Source: Spirochaetaceae bacterium (GTDB taxonomy: Bacteria > Spirochaetota > Spirochaetia > Treponematales > Treponemataceae). Taken from it: a stretch of 54,258 nucleotides of DNA. The position numbers and the translations under genes are program-made. Every line of letters begins with the position of its first letter. The first letter of the stretch is position 1. The notes below the pieces were generated by a model, which made no database searches, was not told the DNA's origin, and worked only from the letters and a program-made list of their open reading frames with translations. Shown here one piece after another: positions 6,986 to 41,630 of the stretch. The stretch spans positions 1 to 54,258 of the forward strand of contig JAGAAX010000030.1 of the NCBI GenBank assembly GCA_017614995.1, read 5' to 3'.

Positions 6986-7056
6986 TAAGCAAAAAGCGAC
7001 GCTTTTCGCCGAACCATCTCTATTCGTAGGTTAAGCTGCTGCGAAAAGAACTCAGC
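6986..7056 (-). repeat. Inverted copy of the intergenic repeat family
   Basis: Read on the minus strand, this stretch gives CTTTTCGCAGCAGCTTAA, then a variable spacer, then GGCGAAAAGCGTCGC (6996-7010) and TTTTTGCTTAC. The same order appears in both tandem units at 24870-25157. The core is also a near-perfect 10-bp hairpin. It lies between the Abi-like gene and the cysteine desulfurase promoter. Confidence 0.65.
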
Positions 7057-9325: not shown

Positions 9326-9433
9326 AAAATCCTCTTTTAAATTGTTTAATATTGAAACAACAAAAAAACTAAAAGTTACAGCACACATAAACAACCAAGG
9401 TACAGTATGCAAGGCATTACAATGTGATTTTAC

Positions 9434-9524
9434 TTGGCGGAAATCCGTTACTTGCGTCCGACGTCCTGCTCGCATGGCAAAGCCATGAGGCAGTCCGCGT
9501 CCGCAATTCACTACTTTCCGCCAG
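9434..9524. repeat. 91-base imperfect inverted repeat
   Basis: Arms of about 45 and 43 bases meet at a perfect core, CATGGC-AAA-GCCATG (9473-9487). The outer ends also pair (TTGGCGGAAA with TTTCCGCCAG). The outermost 14 bases (9433-9446) recur exactly at 41630-41643, and the sequence before them is similar there too, so this is a dispersed element. Confidence 0.6.
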
Positions 9525-9530
9525 AAAATA

Positions 9531-9748
9531 CAATCTAGATGTACACATACAAGAACCTGCGTAGGCGCGTTTTGCTTTGGGATTAATCTTTGTTTTTGTA
9601 ATAATCCCGCAAAACTGCCGAGTTTGCGAAGCAAACTCGTAGCGGAACGCAGATTAAACTATAATTGTAAAGCCGACTATGTGCGTTCCCGATTTGCGGA
9701 ACGAAATATGCCGAGAGCAGGTTCTTGCCTGCTACAATTTCTAGATTG
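9531..9748. repeat. 218-base palindromic element with terminal inverted repeats
   Basis: The ends CAATCTAGA (9531-9539) and TCTAGATTG (9740-9748) are perfect inverted repeats. Inside them CAAGAACCTGC (9550-9560) pairs with GCAGGTTCTTG (9717-9727). Nested hairpins include a GTTTTGC/GCAAAAC stem, a CGAGTTTGC/GCAAACTCG stem (9619-9639) and GGAACGCA/TGCGTTCC. It carries no gene. It looks like a small non-autonomous (MITE-like) element belonging to the palindrome family seen elsewhere in the window. Confidence 0.6.
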
Positions 9749-9788
9749 ATTTTTCATGCTAAAGCGGAACATAAACAGCGTTCTCATG

Positions 9789-23850: not shown

Positions 23851-24067
23851 AAAACCAACTACGCAAGTTTTCTTTATGCAAGACAACATACCAATAAAAG
23901 ATTGCCTTGTCAATTCAGTAAAAACTGAAAGGTTTATGGCTTTATACAAACATGCAGCCATGTATACTCTAATCTAGGTTTTGCCCAGAATTGTAAAATC
24001 TTCAAGACTTATTCCAGAAAAGTACAAAAAAATTCAAAACAAAACTGATAGTAAAGCGGAGGTACTT

Positions 24068-24883
24068 ATGAGTTACATTAAACCGTTTGAAGAACTCTGC
24101 TTTTACGATGATTTCATGTTTGGCGTTGTGATGCAGGACAAAGACATTTGCAAAGAAGCACTTGAGTGTATGCTTGGCTTTAAGATTGACCACATCGAGT
24201 ATAATGAGCCGCAGAAAACAGTTGCACCTCTTTATACGGCTCACGGAATCAGGCTCGATGTGTACGTCAAGGACAGCAACCGCATTTATGATGTAGAGAT
24301 TCAGAACAAAGACGAGCATGACATCGGTAGAAGAACTCGATATTATCAGGGTATGATGGACGTGGATTCGCTTTTGAAGGGGCAGGACTACAGCGAGCTG
24401 AAAGAAAGCATCGTAATCTTTTTGTGCAGATTCGACCCTTTCAAAAAAGGTATTCCGTGCTATACTGTAAGACGTACGTGCAAGGAAGATTCATCTGTAT
24501 TTATTGATGATGCGGCCATCGTTCAGATTTTCAACTGTACGGCGTATGACAAAATCAAAAACAAGAGTTTGCGCGCTTTCCTCAAGTTCGTGCAGACAAA
24601 TATGGCAGAATCAGATTTTACGCGGAGGCTTGATGACATGGTAGAAACACAGAAGAAAGTGGAAGAGCTGAAAAAGACATATCTTTCGTGGAGCCTGCAC
24701 GACAGCGATGTACGCAGAGAAGGCAAGCGCGAAGGCTATGAAGAAGGCCGCTCTGAAGCTAAGCTTGAAGCAGCGCGGAATATGCTTTTGACAAATCTCG
24801 GTACAATAGAGCAAATTGCAGCTGTTCAAGATCTTCCGCTTGAAACTGTACAGCAGCTTGCTGAAGAGCTCTTTTCGCGGTAG
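24068..24883 (+). CDS. Rpn/PD-(D/E)XK nuclease family transposase-like protein
   Basis: A 271-residue protein of the Rpn/PD-(D/E)XK putative transposase group. The N-terminus FYDDFMFGVVMQD is typical. The nuclease core shows RLDVYVKDSNRIYDVEIQ, that is D-x(n)-ExQ of the PD-(D/E)XK fold, at about residues 68-86. The C-terminus is a charged coil with repeated REGKREGYEEGR. Related Rpn proteins are nucleases that promote RecA-independent recombination. GGAGG precedes ATG 24068. The stop codon lies inside the first unit of a tandem non-coding repeat, which may be its target. The catalytic residues look intact. Confidence 0.8.
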   Translation: MSYIKPFEELCFYDDFMFGVVMQDKDICKEALECMLGFKIDHIEYNEPQKTVAPLYTAHGIRLDVYVKDSNRIYDVEIQNKDEHDIGRRTRYYQGMMDVDSLLKGQDYSELKESIVIFLCRFDPFKKGIPCYTVRRTCKEDSSVFIDDAAIVQIFNCTAYDKIKNKSLRAFLKFVQTNMAESDFTRRLDDMVETQKKVEELKKTYLSWSLHDSDVRREGKREGYEEGRSEAKLEAARNMLLTNLGTIEQIAAVQDLPLETVQQLAEELFSR

Positions 24884-25157
24884 CCTAATCTACAAATAAA
24901 GCTTATCTGGCGAAAAGCGCCGCTTTTGCTTACGCAAAACCGGCATCTTATGTACACCAGTCCCCCAAAACAGACCTTGTGCACCATCTTTCAAGTTTTG
25001 TGCCAAGCGAAACTCTTTTCGCAGTAGCTTAATCTTATATTGAAGTTCATACGGCGAAAAGTGTCGCTTTTTGTTTACACAAAAACCGACAGTCTTTGTA
25101 CACCAGCCCCAAAAGCGCGCTCTTGTACATAATCTTTCAAGTTTACGCGAAGCGGAA
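24870..25157. repeat. Two tandem units of about 144 bp after the Rpn-like gene
   Basis: Unit 1 (24870-25013) and unit 2 (25014-25157) both begin TCTTTTCGC and continue with (A/G)GTAGC(C/T)TAATCT, then GGCGAAAAG(C/T)G(C/T)CGCTTTT, then a TTGTACACCAGCCCC-like stretch and TTTCAAGTTT. Unit 1 starts inside the last codons of the nuclease gene. The units are diverged but clearly homologous over their whole length. A third, inverted copy of the first half lies at 6986-7056. Confidence 0.75.
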
Positions 25158-25243
25158 ACTTGCAGCGGTGGCGTTTTGCATTGGAATTAATTTCAATTTA
25201 GACCATCTAGCAAAACGCCAAGTTTCCGTAGAACGGAAACTTG
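25138..25243. repeat. Palindrome cluster: two CAAGTTT hairpins flanking a GGCGTTTTGC hairpin
   Basis: Hairpin A is 25138-25162 (CAAGTTTACGC with GCGGAAACTTG, one mismatch). A stem GGCGTTTTGC (25170-25179) pairs perfectly with GCAAAACGCC (25210-25219). Hairpin B is 25219-25243 (CAAGTTTCCGT with ACGGAAACTTG, perfect). The same building blocks, in different order, occur in the element at 9531-9748. Confidence 0.75.
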
Positions 25244-26071: not shown

Positions 26072-27388
26072 TCATTTTGAACAAACTCCAGGAATACCTT
26101 TAAAGCCAATATATTTATTGCCAGAACCATAAAAGTTAATATTCTTAAATGTAACATTACCGGCATTTGCTGAATTATTACTGCTTTCCTGAAAAGATTC
26201 TGGATTAGCATAATTTATTTCGTTATTGCTTAGTATTGAATCTTTAAGAAATTTTGTTGTTGTTGTGCCAATTATTTCATCTTTCAAGCCATCTTTTAAA
26301 ATTTGCAAAGTATTACTAGGTAATGGGGAAGGGTAAGCAATATTAAAGAGTCCTATCATAATACATCCTATAGTACCATTCATCCAAGCATTTCTCATAT
26401 CCGTTTCTAGAGATTGTCTATTCTGAAAATTAAACATCAATTGAGATGTCATACTTCCTGACATTCCTCCTATCACATTACTAAGTAACATTGCACTTTC
26501 AGGAGTTTCTCCATTTCGCAAAGGAATTTGTGAAATACCTCCAGAAATAAAACCTCCTATAAATCCGCCTGTAGTTGCATTAATACTTTGATTCACATTA
26601 AATTCAAATTTTCCTGTCTTTGCAGCGTTTGCCGTTTGAACAAATGCATCAACCGCAAATGCAGATAAAGATGATTTAAAAGCATTCTTCAACATATTAA
26701 TAGCAGTTTTTCCAATTGTTTTTGAAACTCCTGTAAAACCTGATAATAATAAAACCATATCAAAACTAGGTTTTTCCATATTTGGAAAATCTTTATTCGA
26801 CATTCCTAAATAATATGAAATAGTATCGTATCTATATATTATTCCATTTGGATTATCTGCAAAATGTTGCTGTATTTGTTCCCAAGAATATTGACTCTGC
26901 AATCCCAAATTTTTATCATATTCTTCTCGAGTAAGTGTAGAATTATTCCAAGATTCCAATCCCAATGGGTCTACATAATTCACAGGGTCATTGACTACAT
27001 AGCTGAACCAGTTTGAGCCGTCTCTAATCGGGTCGATTGAGGTGAATCTTGCGCATACAGGGCTGTAATCTCTAAAGCCGTAGTCATACAAGCCTGTGCC
27101 AACATCATAGACTTTGCCGCAGTAGCCGAAACCTATGTCATTCTCAAGGTTGCCGAGATATGGACTGCCAAAAGCATCATAACTGTAATCAGCCTGAACT
27201 GTGCCGTATTTGTCTGTAACATTGCGCACACTGCCCAAGATATCTGTGCCAAAATAAGAAGTTCCGCTGTCATTAGTCATAGCCACAGGCTCGCCGTAGC
27301 TGTACAAGACATACTCGCTGTTCGGGCGGCTGCGCGTTTTTGCACTACTTGTAGAAGAAACTGCATTTGTGCCGTTTTTCACTCTCAT
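26072..27388 (-). CDS. Orphan Rhs C-terminal module with unique toxin-like tail (1)
   Basis: A 438-residue protein that starts directly in the Rhs core-associated domain. Residues about 20-145 read YSYGEPVAMTNDSGTSYFG, YDAFGSPYLGN, GLYDYGFRDYSPVCARF, and end with DPVNYVDPLGL, the usual boundary before a toxin domain. The remaining 290 residues are not recognised and include Gly/Ala-rich hydrophobic stretches (GGFIGGFISGGISQIP). The frame stays open upstream of ATG 27388 (through GKTRKGVNPTK) to about 27470, so it is a piece of a longer rhs gene. Without its beta-cage it cannot be a complete delivered toxin. Confidence 0.75.
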   Translation of the reverse strand: MRVKNGTNAVSSTSSAKTRSRPNSEYVLYSYGEPVAMTNDSGTSYFGTDILGSVRNVTDKYGTVQADYSYDAFGSPYLGNLENDIGFGYCGKVYDVGTGLYDYGFRDYSPVCARFTSIDPIRDGSNWFSYVVNDPVNYVDPLGLESWNNSTLTREEYDKNLGLQSQYSWEQIQQHFADNPNGIIYRYDTISYYLGMSNKDFPNMEKPSFDMVLLLSGFTGVSKTIGKTAINMLKNAFKSSLSAFAVDAFVQTANAAKTGKFEFNVNQSINATTGGFIGGFISGGISQIPLRNGETPESAMLLSNVIGGMSGSMTSQLMFNFQNRQSLETDMRNAWMNGTIGCIMIGLFNIAYPSPLPSNTLQILKDGLKDEIIGTTTTKFLKDSILSNNEINYANPESFQESSNNSANAGNVTFKNINFYGSGNKYIGFKGIPGVCSK

Positions 27389-27471: not shown

Positions 27472-28077
27472 CTAGTTAGAATTAGCCCAAAAATTATCTT
27501 TTAGCTTCTTTGAAAAAAGCATTCCATAATATTCGTCAGTTTCAAAATTACCAGCATAATTAAAGAAGTCTGAATCCTTATAATACATATTACTTCTTTT
27601 TGAACGATCTTGAGGTGTCTGTTCTGCAATTTTTTCAACAAGTTCCAAAAGCTTTTCGTAGTTATTGATATAATCATCAATAGAATTCAACGGTATATTT
27701 AGCAATGCAGAATATGCAATTAATTTGTAGGATAAAAAATCAACACGCCTAGCTGATTCTTTAAAAAATAACCAATCCCAAGTAAAGTACTGTCCTATCA
27801 TTCCAATATTACAAATATTGTTATTTACCAAATCATTTTCTGTACAGGATTCAATGCAAATTCGCCCGTTATTTTTAAGAATAATAAAAATTTCCCAAGC
27901 AAAATCTTTGTGTTCCAAATAATGAAGTTTTACAGATTCAACATTAGGATTTTCTAAAATTCTAGCTTCCATTCTTGCTTTTATTTCGTTAAGTTGCTGC
28001 TCTTTTTCTTTTTTACCGCCAGCAAAGCAATAAAATATAGAAAGAACAAATATAAAAATTAATACTAGTTTCTTCAT
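27472..28077 (-). CDS. Exported protein, putative immunity partner of the Rhs module at 28074
   Basis: A 201-residue protein with a signal peptide (MKKLVLIFIFVLSIFYCFA, cleavage near residue 19-20) and a charged mature start (GGKKEKEQQ). The rest is mixed alpha/beta with no family I recognise. Its ATG overlaps the stop of the upstream Rhs tip (ATGA), so it is translationally coupled to it. Position and coupling argue for an immunity protein that acts in the periplasm or envelope. The gene is AT-rich compared with the metabolic genes nearby. Confidence 0.55.
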   Translation of the reverse strand: MKKLVLIFIFVLSIFYCFAGGKKEKEQQLNEIKARMEARILENPNVESVKLHYLEHKDFAWEIFIILKNNGRICIESCTENDLVNNNICNIGMIGQYFTWDWLFFKESARRVDFLSYKLIAYSALLNIPLNSIDDYINNYEKLLELVEKIAEQTPQDRSKRSNMYYKDSDFFNYAGNFETDEYYGMLFSKKLKDNFWANSN

Positions 28078-29108
28078 TTTGTGCTACATCCTGATTTTGC
28101 ATAGTAGTTTCCATCATTACTGATTATCATATTTTTATACGCACCTATTGTATTAAGAAAGTTATCTTTATTTTTCTCTTTTTCATGTCTTTCAGCACGC
28201 CGATTAACTTCGTTTGCTGAATAGTAGCCGTATAATTCGTTATATTCTTTATACGGCTGTTTCTCACCTTCAGAACGATAATTATTTTTAATGGATGTTA
28301 CCATATTATCAATAGCAATTCCGATGTTTGAAAAAGTTTTCATAACATTTCCTAATCCATTCATTACGATAGTTCCTAGTGATGGCATGATGCTATAAGT
28401 GCCGTTTGAACGAGCTTCTACATACACTTTACTACCTGACCATGTTTTATAAATTGCTCCATCAGGTAAATCAACAGCATCAAGCGGAATATTATTAGAT
28501 TTAGTTAATGACGTATTTGCATATACTTTTAAATAGTTGTTGTCAAAACTAGCCGTTTCTACGGAATTGGTTTTAGTTGTAACTGTCTGCGATGATTCTG
28601 AATTCAGATAAATATAGGGTGATGCATTCGGTACTTTTGCAACATATATAACTTCTCCAGGAACATTCTTCAGAGCATTATTGATTTCATCAACAATCGT
28701 AAATAGACCCAAATAGTCTTTATAGTTTACCGCATCATTCATACAATAGCTGAACCAGTTACTTCCATCTCGAATCGGGTCAATCGTCGTAAAACGTGCA
28801 GAAACTGGCGAATAATCTCTAAAGCCGTAATCATACAAGCCTGTACCGACGTCATAGACTTTGCCGCAGTAACCGAATCCTATGTCATTTTCTAGATTAC
28901 CCAAGTAAGGACTGCCGAACGCGTCATAGCTGTAATCTGCCTGTACTGTGCCATATTTGTCGGTCACGCTTCTGACACTGCCCAATATGTCTGTGCCAAA
29001 GTATGACGTGCCGCTGTCATTTGTCATAGCCACAGGCTCGCCGTAGCTATACAAGACAAACTCGCTGTTCGGGCGGCTGCGTGTTTTGGCTGTTGAACTT
29101 GTTGACAT
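28074..29108 (-). CDS. Orphan Rhs C-terminal module with unique toxin-like tail (2)
   Basis: A 344-residue protein. Residues 1-130 are nearly identical to the Rhs core of the module at 26072, including AKTRSRPNSE and GLYDYGFRDYSPV. The boundary motif is altered to DAVNYKDYLGL, losing both prolines of DPxNxxDPxGL. The tail (about 210 residues, ending NYYAKSGCSTK) is unrelated to module 1 and unrecognised. The ATG lies two bases after the stop of a truncated Rpn gene and has no ribosome site, so it is either coupled to that gene or silent. Confidence 0.7.
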   Translation of the reverse strand: MSTSSTAKTRSRPNSEFVLYSYGEPVAMTNDSGTSYFGTDILGSVRSVTDKYGTVQADYSYDAFGSPYLGNLENDIGFGYCGKVYDVGTGLYDYGFRDYSPVSARFTTIDPIRDGSNWFSYCMNDAVNYKDYLGLFTIVDEINNALKNVPGEVIYVAKVPNASPYIYLNSESSQTVTTKTNSVETASFDNNYLKVYANTSLTKSNNIPLDAVDLPDGAIYKTWSGSKVYVEARSNGTYSIMPSLGTIVMNGLGNVMKTFSNIGIAIDNMVTSIKNNYRSEGEKQPYKEYNELYGYYSANEVNRRAERHEKEKNKDNFLNTIGAYKNMIISNDGNYYAKSGCSTK

Positions 29109-29110
29109 GT

Positions 29111-29806
29111 TTATTTCAATAATTCTACATCAATTTCAGCAAAATCGGCTGCTTCCTGTGCAGTGTGTCCCATATCCATATATTTCTTTGCAAGAACTAT
29201 TTTCCCTTTTTGTTCGCCTTCTGCACGACCTTTAGTTATACCTTCTTTCAGCCCACGCTCAAGTCCTATGTTTTCAGCAGCACTTAAGCCTGAACGGATG
29301 TCGCGCTCAAACATTTCCTGCCGAAACTGTTCAACCCACAAGTCTTGGTTTGCACTTATTGAAGAAAGTGATTGTTTTGCGTTCATGAGCCCTGCCTCCG
29401 TTTCAGTTAATTTCTGTATAACCCTTGTCTTTTTAGGATTATCAGCTTCTTTCAAGAAAATCGCCCAGTTTTCTAAAGCTGTGTTCTTTTCAATGCTATT
29501 CTCAAGCTTGGTGACTTTTGGCAGCTCAATAAAAATGATATTGAGTGTGTTTGAAAGCTCGCGGTTGTCTGCTGTGCGCATTGCGTACCGGCTGACTGCA
29601 TCATTTGAGCTTTTGTCAAACACAAAATCAAGCACCATAATCTGATAGACCTTCGGAGCTTTTTCCCAAGTGTCGCCTTTCTTGAGATAAGTTGTTTCAA
29701 GCCTTGCAACCTGATATTCTGCGCGCTTGCCATAATCGTATTTCTGGTTAAACGCCATCACGGGTTTGCGTTTAGGCTTATTCTTCAAAACACGACTGTT
29801 CGGCAA
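29111..29806 (-). pseudogene. 5'-truncated Rpn/PD-(D/E)XK transposase-like gene
   Basis: The sequence matches only the middle and C-terminal parts of the Rpn family: KRAEYQVARLETTYLKKGD, then YQIMVLDFVF, then IIFIELPKV, then a charged GLERGLKEGITKGRAEGEQKG tail. The N-terminal nuclease core with its D...ExQ residues is missing. The first ATG is 29758, with no ribosome site; the frame is open to a TTG at 29806. A 24-base palindrome begins seven bases beyond, so the deletion endpoint lies at the palindromes. It belongs to a different subfamily from the intact gene at 24068. Confidence 0.7.
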
Positions 29807-29812
29807 ACCCTG

Positions 29813-29960
29813 CTAATTTGCGCAAGCGCAAATTAGTAAAAGATTTGTGTATCTTAAAAAATCAGTTTATGTACCTTCTTACCAAGTTTTCGCTTGCGAA
29901 AACTTGCAGGGAACGCAAATAAAGCTATTTTTTATGTTTATCATAAACGCGTTCCCGGCG
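29813..29960. repeat. Palindrome cluster at the Rpn truncation point
   Basis: CTAATTTGCGC-AA-GCGCAAATTAG (29813-29836) has a perfect 11-bp stem. CAAGTTTTCGC-TT-GCGAAAACTTG (29883-29906) also has a perfect 11-bp stem. GGGAACGC then pairs with GCGTTCCC about 30 bases later. The order CAAGTTT hairpin followed by a GGAACGC hairpin is the same as in the element at 9531-9748. Confidence 0.75.
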
Positions 29961-30990: not shown

Positions 30991-33939
30991 ATGAAAAAAA
31001 GACGGTTTTTTACAATAATTATTTCTTCAATATTAATTCTGACAATGTTTTCTTCTTGCGTATCAGGAGCAATTGCGGGCGTTATGGCACCTACAGCGGC
31101 AGCTTTTATTGCCAGCGGAATTTTAGGCATAGGCGACGTGCCTGAAAAAGTGCCCGAAGAACCTGCACCGCCAAAACCGGTAGAAGACGACAGCCATCCT
31201 GTTCCAACATTGCAGGGCGACCCGGTTGCAAAAAACACAAACTCTGACGCAGAAACATTTACAAATCCTCAAGTAAAAAATAATTCAGATGATGATTTTG
31301 TCTACGAAGACGATGACGACGATTTCTTTTATGAAACAGACACAACACCGTCTGCAAGCACAAGCACAAAACCGGCAGAATCTGCTGCAACGGCAAAATC
31401 AAGCGGAACTGAAACCGACTTAAACTCAAAGTTTAAGCCATCTACAAACGGCACAGACGCAGCCAGCACAACAGACACAACAGGCGCTGCGAAAACGGCG
31501 GCTACAAGCATAGCTACAGCAACAACTCCGGTAAATACAGAAAAATACACAAGTGACTGGAATGTAATCAACCTGATTCTTGCAGGAAGAGTTGAAGAAG
31601 CAAAGCAGGAATTAGACCGCACAAAAGCATATAATCAGACTGACAAAAACGGCTACAGTTCGCTTCATGCGGCGGCAATGGCAAACAATGCAGAGCTTGT
31701 TACATGGCTTATTGCGCGCGGCGCAGATACGGAACAGAAGAACAATCTCGGCGATACGCCTGTTTTTACAGCAATACGCTATTATTCAGCAAATGCAGCA
31801 CAGGCATTGGTTGACGGCGGCGCAGATTATTTTGCAAGAAACTCTGAAGGCAAAATGGCATTTTCAGCCGGAATTGAAAAAGACAAATGCTTTTATCCGG
31901 TTTTCATTATTCAGCCTGTAGGAGAAGTACGCGACATAAGAGGGCAGAACATCGTCCACTATTTTATAAAGAACGATGACATTGACGGCGCGGCATTATG
32001 TATTGAACGAGACCTTAACCTTGACATAAGAGACAACAACGGTCTGACGCCGCTTGCCCTTGCCTACACAAATACAGAAAGCCCAACAAGCGCAGCTCTT
32101 GCCGCCGCCCTCATTCTTGCCGGTGTTTCACCAATCAGGGGCGACTTTGAATATTTTGAGAACACCGTAAAAACAAGAAATGCACGCCAGACTTTTGAAG
32201 ACGACCAGACTGCGCTTCATCTTGCTGTTGTAAGAAACCACTACGGCATAGCAGACTATCTTATTTCATGCGGCTCGCTTCTTGACGCACAGGACATTTC
32301 GGGCGCGACACCGCTTCACCTTGCTGTACGTTACGGCAGACTGAATCATGCGAAGCTTCTGCTTGAAAAAGGCGCAAATGTAGACGCATGTGACTCAACA
32401 TTAAAGACTCCGCTGCTTATAACAGCGCCAAAAGAAGCACAGGACGACATTTACACACTGCTTCTTGAGCATAAGGCCGACACTTCAGCACAAGACATTT
32501 TCGGCGACAATGCACTGCAAATTGCCACACTCGGCGGCATGTCAAGCAGCCTTGTTATAAGACTGATTAACGCAGGAGCCAGAGTTAATGCTGCAAACAA
32601 AAAAGGTCTTACACCGCTTGCACAGGCTGTTGCTTTAAAAAACGTAGAACACATCAAGATTTATTCAACTCATGGTGCAGACATTTTTGCAGCAGACATA
32701 AACGGCGAATCTCCTTTAACAAGATGCCTTAGAGATGGAAATATTCTTAAGATTCTTGTAAATGCATCAAACTTGAAAGTCACAGACGCTTACGGCAACA
32801 CACCGCTTCATATTGCGCTTGAGCATAAGGCAACAGCCGGAAGTGTACGCTATCTTCTTGATGCAGGAATTGCCGTTGACGTTGCAAACTGTTACGGCGA
32901 GACACCGCTTTTTAGTGCGACTAAATCTGACAACTACCAGGGCGTTCAGCAGCTTATAAAGGCAGGCGCAATCAAAAACATTACAGACAATCAGGGCAAC
33001 ACAGCATTACACGCCTGTGTAAGATGGGCAGCAGAAAAAAGCTGTGCAAAGCTGCTCGCCGCCGGTTATGATGTAGACATCAAAAACCAGTCTGGCAAGA
33101 CACCGCTTGCAGAAGCTGCACGTCAGAACAGAATTGAAATAATGAAGCAGCTTATTGCTAAAGGCGCAAACTTAAACTCACAGGATGTTACAGGCAAAAG
33201 CATTCTGATGGACGCAATTCAGTGCAAGAATCCGGTTGCGGCTTCGCTTCTGCTTAAAAAAGGCGCAGACCCAACAATCGTTGACGTGTACGGCAGAAAC
33301 GCCTTCCACGAGGCAACAACAACAGAACTTGAAGAGCTTATTTCGCTTATTCAAAAGACAGGCGTCAGCCCGCTCTCTACAGATTTGCATGGCAAGACGC
33401 CGTTCGGCATTATCATCAGAAAGGGCGACAAGCTTATTCAGTCAACATTGGGAACAAACCGCAATATTGTAGACGTAAACAAGAACAATCCGCTGCATAT
33501 CTCCGTAATTGAAAATGCGCCGCTTTCGGTCTTTGAGCTTTTAGTTAAGCTCGGCTATGATATAAACGCAAAGAATAATAGCGGAAAAACACCTGTTCAG
33601 CTTGCAGTATCTGCCGGCATGAATGACGCTGTTAAATATCTTTTGAGCTGTGGTGCTGATGTTTTTGCTATTGATTCAACAGGCGCTAACGCTGTTACAA
33701 CTTCAATAACAGATAATCCGTCTGTGCTTATTGATATTCTTAATGCAAACAAGAATAAAACTGACGCAAACGGAAACACAGTGCTTCATTATGCGGCACA
33801 ATGCGCAGATTCAAATGTTCTTTCTGTTCTTATGCAGTACGGCGCAGACAAAAACGCCAAAAATAAAAAAGGCGAGACAGCGGCTGACATTGCACAAAAC
33901 TTCAATAGACCGGCTGATATAATTCAGATTCTTAGATAA
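30991..33939 (+). CDS. Large ankyrin-repeat lipoprotein
   Basis: A 982-residue envelope protein. A signal sequence with a relaxed lipobox (FSSC, Cys23) is followed by a Pro-rich stretch, an acidic patch (DDDFVYEDDDDD), and a Ser/Thr-rich linker to about residue 185. About 20 ankyrin repeats fill the rest, with repeated forms such as TPLHLAVRYGRL, GNTPLHIALEHKA and GNTVLHYAAQ. Ankyrin arrays bind proteins; the partner is not known. AAGGA precedes ATG 30991. A bidirectional terminator follows. Confidence 0.85.
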   Translation: MKKRRFFTIIISSILILTMFSSCVSGAIAGVMAPTAAAFIASGILGIGDVPEKVPEEPAPPKPVEDDSHPVPTLQGDPVAKNTNSDAETFTNPQVKNNSDDDFVYEDDDDDFFYETDTTPSASTSTKPAESAATAKSSGTETDLNSKFKPSTNGTDAASTTDTTGAAKTAATSIATATTPVNTEKYTSDWNVINLILAGRVEEAKQELDRTKAYNQTDKNGYSSLHAAAMANNAELVTWLIARGADTEQKNNLGDTPVFTAIRYYSANAAQALVDGGADYFARNSEGKMAFSAGIEKDKCFYPVFIIQPVGEVRDIRGQNIVHYFIKNDDIDGAALCIERDLNLDIRDNNGLTPLALAYTNTESPTSAALAAALILAGVSPIRGDFEYFENTVKTRNARQTFEDDQTALHLAVVRNHYGIADYLISCGSLLDAQDISGATPLHLAVRYGRLNHAKLLLEKGANVDACDSTLKTPLLITAPKEAQDDIYTLLLEHKADTSAQDIFGDNALQIATLGGMSSSLVIRLINAGARVNAANKKGLTPLAQAVALKNVEHIKIYSTHGADIFAADINGESPLTRCLRDGNILKILVNASNLKVTDAYGNTPLHIALEHKATAGSVRYLLDAGIAVDVANCYGETPLFSATKSDNYQGVQQLIKAGAIKNITDNQGNTALHACVRWAAEKSCAKLLAAGYDVDIKNQSGKTPLAEAARQNRIEIMKQLIAKGANLNSQDVTGKSILMDAIQCKNPVAASLLLKKGADPTIVDVYGRNAFHEATTTELEELISLIQKTGVSPLSTDLHGKTPFGIIIRKGDKLIQSTLGTNRNIVDVNKNNPLHISVIENAPLSVFELLVKLGYDINAKNNSGKTPVQLAVSAGMNDAVKYLLSCGADVFAIDSTGANAVTTSITDNPSVLIDILNANKNKTDANGNTVLHYAAQCADSNVLSVLMQYGADKNAKNKKGETAADIAQNFNRPADIIQILR

Positions 33940-41328: not shown

Positions 41329-41384
41329 TATTTGCGTTTCACAGTAAGCTTTTTCTATATTTTTAGGTTAAACTAGTGAAACGC

Positions 41385-41566
41385 CAAGTTTTTGCTCGCA
41401 AAAACTTGAAAGATAATATAAAACTTTATTCTTCATTTAATCTACAAAACAAGCTTAACCAGCAAACCCGCCAAGTTTCACCTTGCGGTGAAACTTGATA
41501 GATTGGCAACAGGATGCATTATACAAATTCTTGAGATTTCGCGAAGCGAAATCGACGCTTTTCGCC
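41385..41566. repeat. Palindrome cluster between rpsP and the histidine-phosphatase gene
   Basis: CAAGTTTTTGC-TC-GCAAAAACTTG (41385-41408) and CAAGTTTCACC-TTGC-GGTGAAACTTG (41472-41497) each have perfect 11-bp stems. GATTTCGC-GAA-GCGAAATC (41535-41553) and an inverted CGACGCTTTTCGCC core (41553-41566) follow. All belong to the repeat family at 7, 9.5, 25 and 29.8 kb. No gene lies here. Confidence 0.75.
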
Positions 41567-41630
41567 TGTTAAATCTTTTCTAAGGAACTGACTAAAGCGA
41601 AAAGAGAAAAGCATAGATGTGTAATTCTGC

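Follow-up and report, generated by a model that had tools for sequence, protein, structure and literature searches.

Hairpins of the window and their occurrence in related genomes

What kind of element are the short palindromes that recur between the genes of this DNA, and how do they keep their fold while the letters of their stems change? We analysed the window, meaning the whole stretch of 54,258 nt, together with related genomes, and the element is a real family of short palindromic repeats in the Treponema family, mosaic in build and BIME/REPIN-like. A sequence-only reading had listed five CAAGTTT...AAACTTG hairpins, and all five were located (25138-25162, 25219-25243, 29883-29906, 41385-41408 and 41472-41497) with the inner stems that it gave, including the single mismatch at 25138. 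The related CGAGTTTGC stem at 9619 was found as CGAGTTTGC-gaa-GCAAACTCG (9619-9639), as were the GGCGTTTTGC and GGAACGC stems at 25170/25210, 9644/9683 and 29910/29949.

The CAAGTTT hairpins, called module B below, are far above chance: the window's own genome (G000, 3.05 Mb) contains 71 matches to the pattern and none to its reversed control. Seven congeners were searched; four of them contain 67, 172 (G003), 34 and 28 copies and the other three 1-2. Among 197 sampled genomes of the order the pattern is high solely in the family to which the window belongs, in which individual genomes from several further genera carry 20-90 copies, and it stays at background in the remaining families. Confinement to one genome would have counted against the earlier reading; the hairpins occur in four congeners and several genera.

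Other observations were made during these searches. In a genome from another family of the order (G136) the reversed control GTTCAAA...TTTGAAC gave 62 matches, and this genome seems to have a hairpin family of its own. In another Treponema genus (G192, G201 and G149) the CAAGTTT hairpin lies inside a long repeated element (L173:7352-7713, L174, L177 and L184) that looks like several hairpins nested within an outer stem. Several contigs of G003 (L051, L052, L053, L054, L058 and L059) end within tandem B arrays with a period of 78-83 bp; the assembly is interrupted at these arrays, and the counts probably fall short of the true copy numbers.

Modules and composites

That the hairpins combine with other stems, as first proposed, was borne out, but the element had been understated, since each hairpin is one module of a larger composite. 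The unit is a hairpin with a variable stem and a conserved core (module A) next to a hairpin in which both stem and arms vary (module B). Module A is about 46 nt long, with a variable 7-11 bp stem ending YGC/GCR around a conserved core of about 32 nt, TAGcTTAATCTACAAAnnAAGtTTAATC, and the GGCGTTTTGC and GGAACGC stems are alleles of this one module. The stem alleles in a set selected for pairing were TTTTCGC (34), GTTTTGC (20), GGTTTGC (17), GTTTCGC (13) and GGTGCGC (6). Module B, a hairpin of 20-28 nt, abuts module A, and module C is a B-type hairpin with CGG-like arms.

A MAFFT alignment of all A stem classes placed the stems in two registers, so the covariance model for A (R1) was built mostly from one stem class. 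With this model at least 139 A copies were counted in G000, at least 150 in G001, at least 101 in G006 and at least 96 in G007, with 12 in G003 and 1-3 in G002, G004 and G005. Contact with a B-type hairpin was seen for 83 of 104 A modules, and it is almost always confined to one side. The outer arms of B also vary in step in the window's own genome: at 87 A-B contacts CAAG was commonest (32), followed by CGAG (6), CCAG (6), and then CTAG and others. B is flanked mostly by gc or tg at the A side and by taa or aaa at the opposite side, and in 39 of 87 cases the word TGYACM lies no more than 24 nt after it, compared with 2 cases for a control word. Mismatches in B are few and mostly single, and the type seen at 25138 recurs in other copies in the same orientation.

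Twelve facing composites of the form A-B-linker-B-A were found, 161-206 bp long (roughly 160-206) with linkers mostly of 33-46 bp. Longer arrays are repeated A-B units, and copies are found in either orientation. Different loci hold close copies, about 88-93% alike across 240-430 bp by all-against-all blastn. The modules of the window fall into five clusters (7002-7048, 9569-9689, 24871-25243, 29761-29957 and 41334-41604), listed here with the neighbouring features:

7002-7048, minus strand: solitary module A, stem allele CTTTTCGC (core and stem match; covariance model 56 bits)
9399-9771, no strand: repeated segment enclosing the 9569-9689 composite (all-against-all blastn)
9569-9615, plus strand: module A, stem GTTTTGC, first hairpin of an A-B-A composite (core, stem)
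9619-9639, plus strand: module B with CGAG arms, CGAGTTTGC-gaa-GCAAACTCG
9644-9689, minus strand: module A, stem GGAACGC (core, stem)
23981-24883, plus strand: Rpn-family gene (TIGR01784, PD-(D/E)XK; E 4e-34, 118.6 bits, cut-off 52.1)
24871-24917, plus strand: module A, CTTTTCGC, overlapping the Rpn stop codon (covariance model 63 bits)
24919-24945, plus strand: module C, GCCGCTTTTGC/GCAAAACCGGC (B-type hairpin)
24992-25014, plus strand: decayed B hairpin, caagttttgtgccaagcgaaact
25015-25061, plus strand: module A, CTTTTCGC (covariance model)
25062-25091, plus strand: module C, TGTCGCTTTTTGT/ACAAAAACCGACA
25138-25162, plus strand: module B, CAAGTTTACGCgaaGCGGAAACTTG, one mismatch
25169-25220, plus strand: module A, long stem TGGCGTTTTGC
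25219-25243, plus strand: module B, CAAGTTTCCGTagaACGGAAACTTG
29111-29806, minus strand: Rpn-family (PF12784) remnant, N-terminal part lost at the composite
29761-29957, no strand: complete facing composite A-B-linker-B-A (alignment with three uninterrupted copies)
29762-29810, plus strand: module A, GGGTTTGC (covariance model)
29811-29838, plus strand: module B with CTAA arms, TGCTAATTTGCG-caag-CGCAAATTAGTA
29883-29906, minus strand: module B, CAAGTTTTCG-cttg-CGAAAACTTG
29909-29956, minus strand: module A, GGGAACGC (core, stem)
41334-41384, plus strand: module A, GCGTTTCAC/GTGAAACGC (covariance model)
41385-41408, plus strand: module B, CAAGTTTTTG-ctcg-CAAAAACTTG
41437-41471, plus strand: partial module A (3' half, ending GCAAACCC), then gc (model positions 14-38)
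41472-41497, plus strand: module B, CAAGTTTCACC-ttgc-GGTGAAACTTG
41535-41553: B-like hairpin GATTTCGCgaaGCGAAATC, beside the 41558-41604 A module
41558-41604, minus strand: module A, CTTTTCGC (core, stem)

The array at 24871-25243 reads A-C-linker-(decayed B)-A-C-linker-B-A-B. Among the matches listed for the A-C junction word, 45 of 80 are in three spirochaete MAGs and the rest are single, chance-like matches in unrelated genomes. The segment at 9399-9771 has two other genomic copies, each 82% alike to it and 90% to each other, and the CGAG arms of its B module also occur near Rpn genes of a genome from another genus (G055). Folded as single-stranded DNA, two elements of the window were far better than their shuffles (z -7.7 and -6.7), the second being the composite at 29761-29957, which folds into separate hairpins.

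Other features of the window were noted alongside the modules. A separate inverted repeat, TGGCGGAAATCCGTTACTTGCG...CGCAATTCACTACTTTCCGCCA, is present at 9435-9523 and in about ten genomic places, often near A/B elements. Two Rhs-core proteins (26072-27388 and 28074-29108) lie between the two Rpn loci, their DNA about 81% identical across some 380 bp, and a 982-aa ankyrin-repeat protein (30991-33939) comes after this region.

Covariation of the stems

Covariation was counted by scripts on fixed registers. The search for B fixed its seven outer bases only, and the inner pairs are therefore a fair test. Across 110 distinct hairpins of the family, pairs 8, 9, 10 and 11 were Watson-Crick in 82, 88, 84 and 80% of cases, against 34, 33, 35 and 54% with shuffled partners; each inner pair exceeded all 2000 shuffles, with several pair types at every position. 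For module A the first count had required pairing and was thus biased, so it was repeated on copies found through the core alone, with no stem demanded, and stem positions 3, 6 and 7 paired above all shuffles.

The stems covary well above shuffled controls within the window's own genome and across genera, which is the covariation that the sequence-only reading had proposed to look for. Its explanation, selection for a structure or repeated inverted copying, fares less evenly, as the covariation stands while selection as its cause is not established. Template-switch (quasi-palindrome) correction is a well-known process that could give the same covariation and matches the 'repeated inverted copying' of that reading; the covariation counts do not separate it from selection.

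Position relative to genes

Clusters lie between genes in 53 of 55 cases, and many elements sit directly after stop codons. By simple ORF calling, the gaps holding clusters (n = 48) were 23 co-directional, 16 convergent and 9 divergent, compared to 102, 40 and 57 among all gaps of at least 60 bp (n = 199), so that convergent gaps are mildly favoured at the expense of divergent ones. In the flanks read of the listed copies neither strand shows a T run after the hairpin, which speaks against an intrinsic terminator, a G+C-rich hairpin followed by a T run. An Rfam 15 scan of the window returned two tRNAs only, with no family above gathering score for the hairpins.

Association with Rpn nuclease genes

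The all-against-all comparison showed repeated genes of the Rpn ('recombination-promoting' nuclease) family beside the arrays, a link that had been missed from the letters alone. The genes neighbouring A/B elements are members of the Rpn/YhgA-like nucleases (PF04754, PF12784, TIGR01784), which are described as promoting RecA-independent transfer and as anti-phage toxins kept in check by fragments of their own C terminus (PMC5350276, PMC10327210). Of the 19 Rpn genes or fragments in G000, 15 have an A or B module within 1 kb, or 12 of 16 separate loci. The random comparison, segments of ten hand-picked 20-kb windows avoiding known matches, gave 1.5%; a fairer expectation from the genome-wide density of A is about 0.13 modules per Rpn neighbourhood. 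In G001 and G007, 13 of 20 Rpn neighbourhoods contain an A module. Strong hairpins number 7.3 per 10 kb near Rpn genes in G055 versus 0.5 in the control, and hairpins in G201 number 4.2 versus 1.25, while a hairpin excess was absent near the six Rpn genes examined in G009 (59 Rpn matches).

The contact is close at the 3' end of the genes. Of 35 Rpn genes checked, 9 (0.08 expected) have stem allele CTTTTCGC at the stop codon, always oriented alike, and the stop codon of the window's Rpn ORF (23981-24883) lies inside the first A module of the array. The rpn coding regions have been reported without identifiable flanking terminal repeats (PMC10327210), in contrast to this A module at the stop codon. 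At the 5' side no hairpin matching the element was found as a left end, only a conserved upstream motif. This motif, TTTTGTAAAATCTTTAAGAATTTTCGCAAA..GGTACAGAAAAAA, is shared by most of 29 Rpn genes examined in three genomes (for example at about 23981-24107 in the window and in L227, L041 and L266) and may be either a promoter/operator or a mobile Rpn unit's left end.

Two further observations concern the surroundings of Rpn genes. Extra copies of the Rpn C-terminal part directly follow some of them, downstream of the stop codons (L227, L268 and L222); these look like spare C-terminal cassettes and recall the small antitoxin homologs described for Rpn. A hairpin family CAGTTTGTTGC...GCAACAAACTG with the conserved middle ATGAAACTATATACGTGTCGC lies a few hundred bases upstream of several Rpn genes (L264:2054-2105, L266:2041-2092, L268:473-526 and L041:8641-8691).

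One Rpn gene is interrupted by an element. The composite at 29761-29957 replaces the N-terminal ~225 bp of this gene, leaving the remnant ORF 29111-29806; both ends of the composite lie at the outer A-module stems, and short words are shared where the gene is broken. A target-site duplication was not observed, and as this single resolved insertion came with a deletion, a transposition event is not demonstrated. Apart from Rpn, we noticed no multicopy transposase in the set of longest repeats.

G003, with its 172 B hairpins, has no TIGR01784 or PF12784 gene, and G123 and G127 (8 B hairpins each) have no TIGR01784 match. Ten genes adjoining sampled G003 sites were ordinary, and no candidate enzyme was found among the neighbours sampled. 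The link between Rpn and the element is solid as geography but, because G003 has the hairpins with no Rpn gene, Rpn as the mobiliser is a hypothesis. It is possible that Rpn genes and repeats share accessory islands for other reasons.

How the elements spread and are maintained

Our preferred reading, to which we give a probability of roughly 0.4, is that the A/B elements spread through folded DNA with Rpn as the likely partner. Here the hairpins, once folded, would be recognised by a cut-and-repair or copying mechanism that disseminates the elements at the DNA level, which would preserve pairing while the letters drift; with less certainty, the partner may be an Rpn-family PD-(D/E)XK nuclease in the role that RAYT/TnpA-REP plays for REP. 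In a fuller scheme Rpn would mobilise the repeats: the parent unit would be an Rpn gene whose stop codon carries an A hairpin, and the dispersed A-B composites would descend from it as non-autonomous derivatives. As a whole we consider this scheme unlikely. The same BIME-like repeat could also be moved by another enzyme, whether a transposase, a recombinase or host repair, with arrays acting as hot spots where Rpn genes get captured and closeness to Rpn reflecting hitchhiking. This we regard as a tangible possibility short of a probable one: G003, G123 and G127 carry hairpins without Rpn, the single interrupted gene suffered a deletion, with short words shared where it is broken, instead of a clean insertion, and CGTC-type REPs are likewise reported without a dedicated transposase (PMC3733652). 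However, general hitchhiking does not predict a contact as close as that in 9 of 35 genes, where an A module of fixed orientation meets the Rpn stop codon, and the G003 arrays yielded no alternative candidate.

Covariation alone would also fit hairpins that are structured RNA elements, kept for a role in transcripts such as 3'-end protection, processing or termination. The many copies immediately 3' of stop codons, the mild convergent excess (16 of 48 clusters versus 40 of 199 overall) and linker-B-A strand mismatches that would be G.U by 12 to 4 (not significant) lean that way, but the lack of a T run on either strand in the flanks read, the 9 of 48 clusters between divergent genes and the occurrence of both orientations and long arrays make this role rather improbable. 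We give little credence to old dispersed repeats whose arms are kept complementary by template-switch correction, with no structural selection. Such upkeep would suit the few, mostly single mismatches and changes that end as perfect Watson-Crick pairs, but conservation differs by position, with the CAAGTTT arms shared by several genera and the A core by different species although the inner stems are replaced, A-B order, spacing and the TGYACM word are kept (39 of 87 versus 2), and mismatches of the 25138 type are found repeatedly in a single orientation. Scattering of attC sites from the array of a chromosomal integron was considered since G000 carries a genuine integron integrase (G000:C28:36594-37529, L286; 420 bits, near a contig end); attC sites are hairpins kept by structure, and A modules at Rpn stop codons look cassette-like. 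No true A module of the known stem classes and no B hairpin lies around the integrase gene in G000 (about 5 kb downstream, to the contig end) or in G007, the attC sites of G055 are a different sequence of about 70 bp with AAC/GTT ends, and G001, G003 and G006 have the repeats with no integrase match above cut-off. We therefore reject an attC identity, which has next to no chance of being right, the A/B elements also being dispersed.

REP-like repeats are among the commonest bacterial repeats, and RAYT is their known enzyme. If the preferred reading of spread through folded DNA is true, a family that keeps its fold and changes its letters in genomes without RAYT, and whose location is tied to a different family of nucleases, would represent a second solution, independent of the first. 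It would also open a standing question to testing, namely the substrate of Rpn nucleases and the reason for the dozens of them in treponemes. Should Rpn be the mobiliser, the nuclease at the base of this REP-like system would have no relation to RAYT, and the Rpn family would gain a DNA substrate and its 'putative transposase' name a reason.

Comparison with known repeat systems

Several known systems invite comparison. BOX elements of pneumococcus are modular hairpins with a variable number of modules, and they resemble A/B in being modular hairpins, although the sequences are unrelated and we know of no stem turnover of the A/B type in BOX modules. The attC sites share hairpins in which structure counts over sequence, whereas A/B elements are dispersed and, compared with the attC sites of G055, their ends are without R''/R' boxes with AAC and GTT ends. 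CGTC-tagged REPs are REP-like and have been reported from Spirochaetes too, without a known dedicated transposase (PMC3733652); A/B differs from them in arms and tag. A CGTC-type REP, CGTCATTGCGAG, is present separately in G000 (L030 and other stretches).

The closest likeness is to REP, BIME and REPIN elements with their RAYT (TnpA-REP), whose design comprises inverted palindrome pairs, linkers, arrays, mismatches and an adjacent nuclease gene (PMC8266576, PMC3733652). Shared with A/B are short high-copy intergenic palindromes (71 B and at least 139 A in 3.05 Mb), inverted pairs across a linker (the 12 facing composites), tandem arrays, changing stems and a nuclease gene beside the repeats. 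A/B differs in having two hairpin types per unit and no GTAG tag at the hairpin ends, neither GTAG nor CGTC being present in the B flanks read, and in its neighbouring nuclease, a PD-(D/E)XK Rpn where the REP partner RAYT is a Y1 HUH enzyme. RAYT itself (Y1 transposase, PF01797) matched nothing in G000 or in five of the seven congeners, and was rejected as the partner since it is absent from G000. The first reading knew of no named element with these features; there is indeed no Rfam match, and no description of such repeats in Treponema was found in the open-licence literature, but the general kind is known. The A/B family thus appears to be undescribed and, by analogy, would work like a REP system, a likeness that does not by itself show membership. 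As the CAAGTTT hairpin is half of the A-B unit in a BIME/REPIN-like composite, the kind of element is a known one even if the family may not be.
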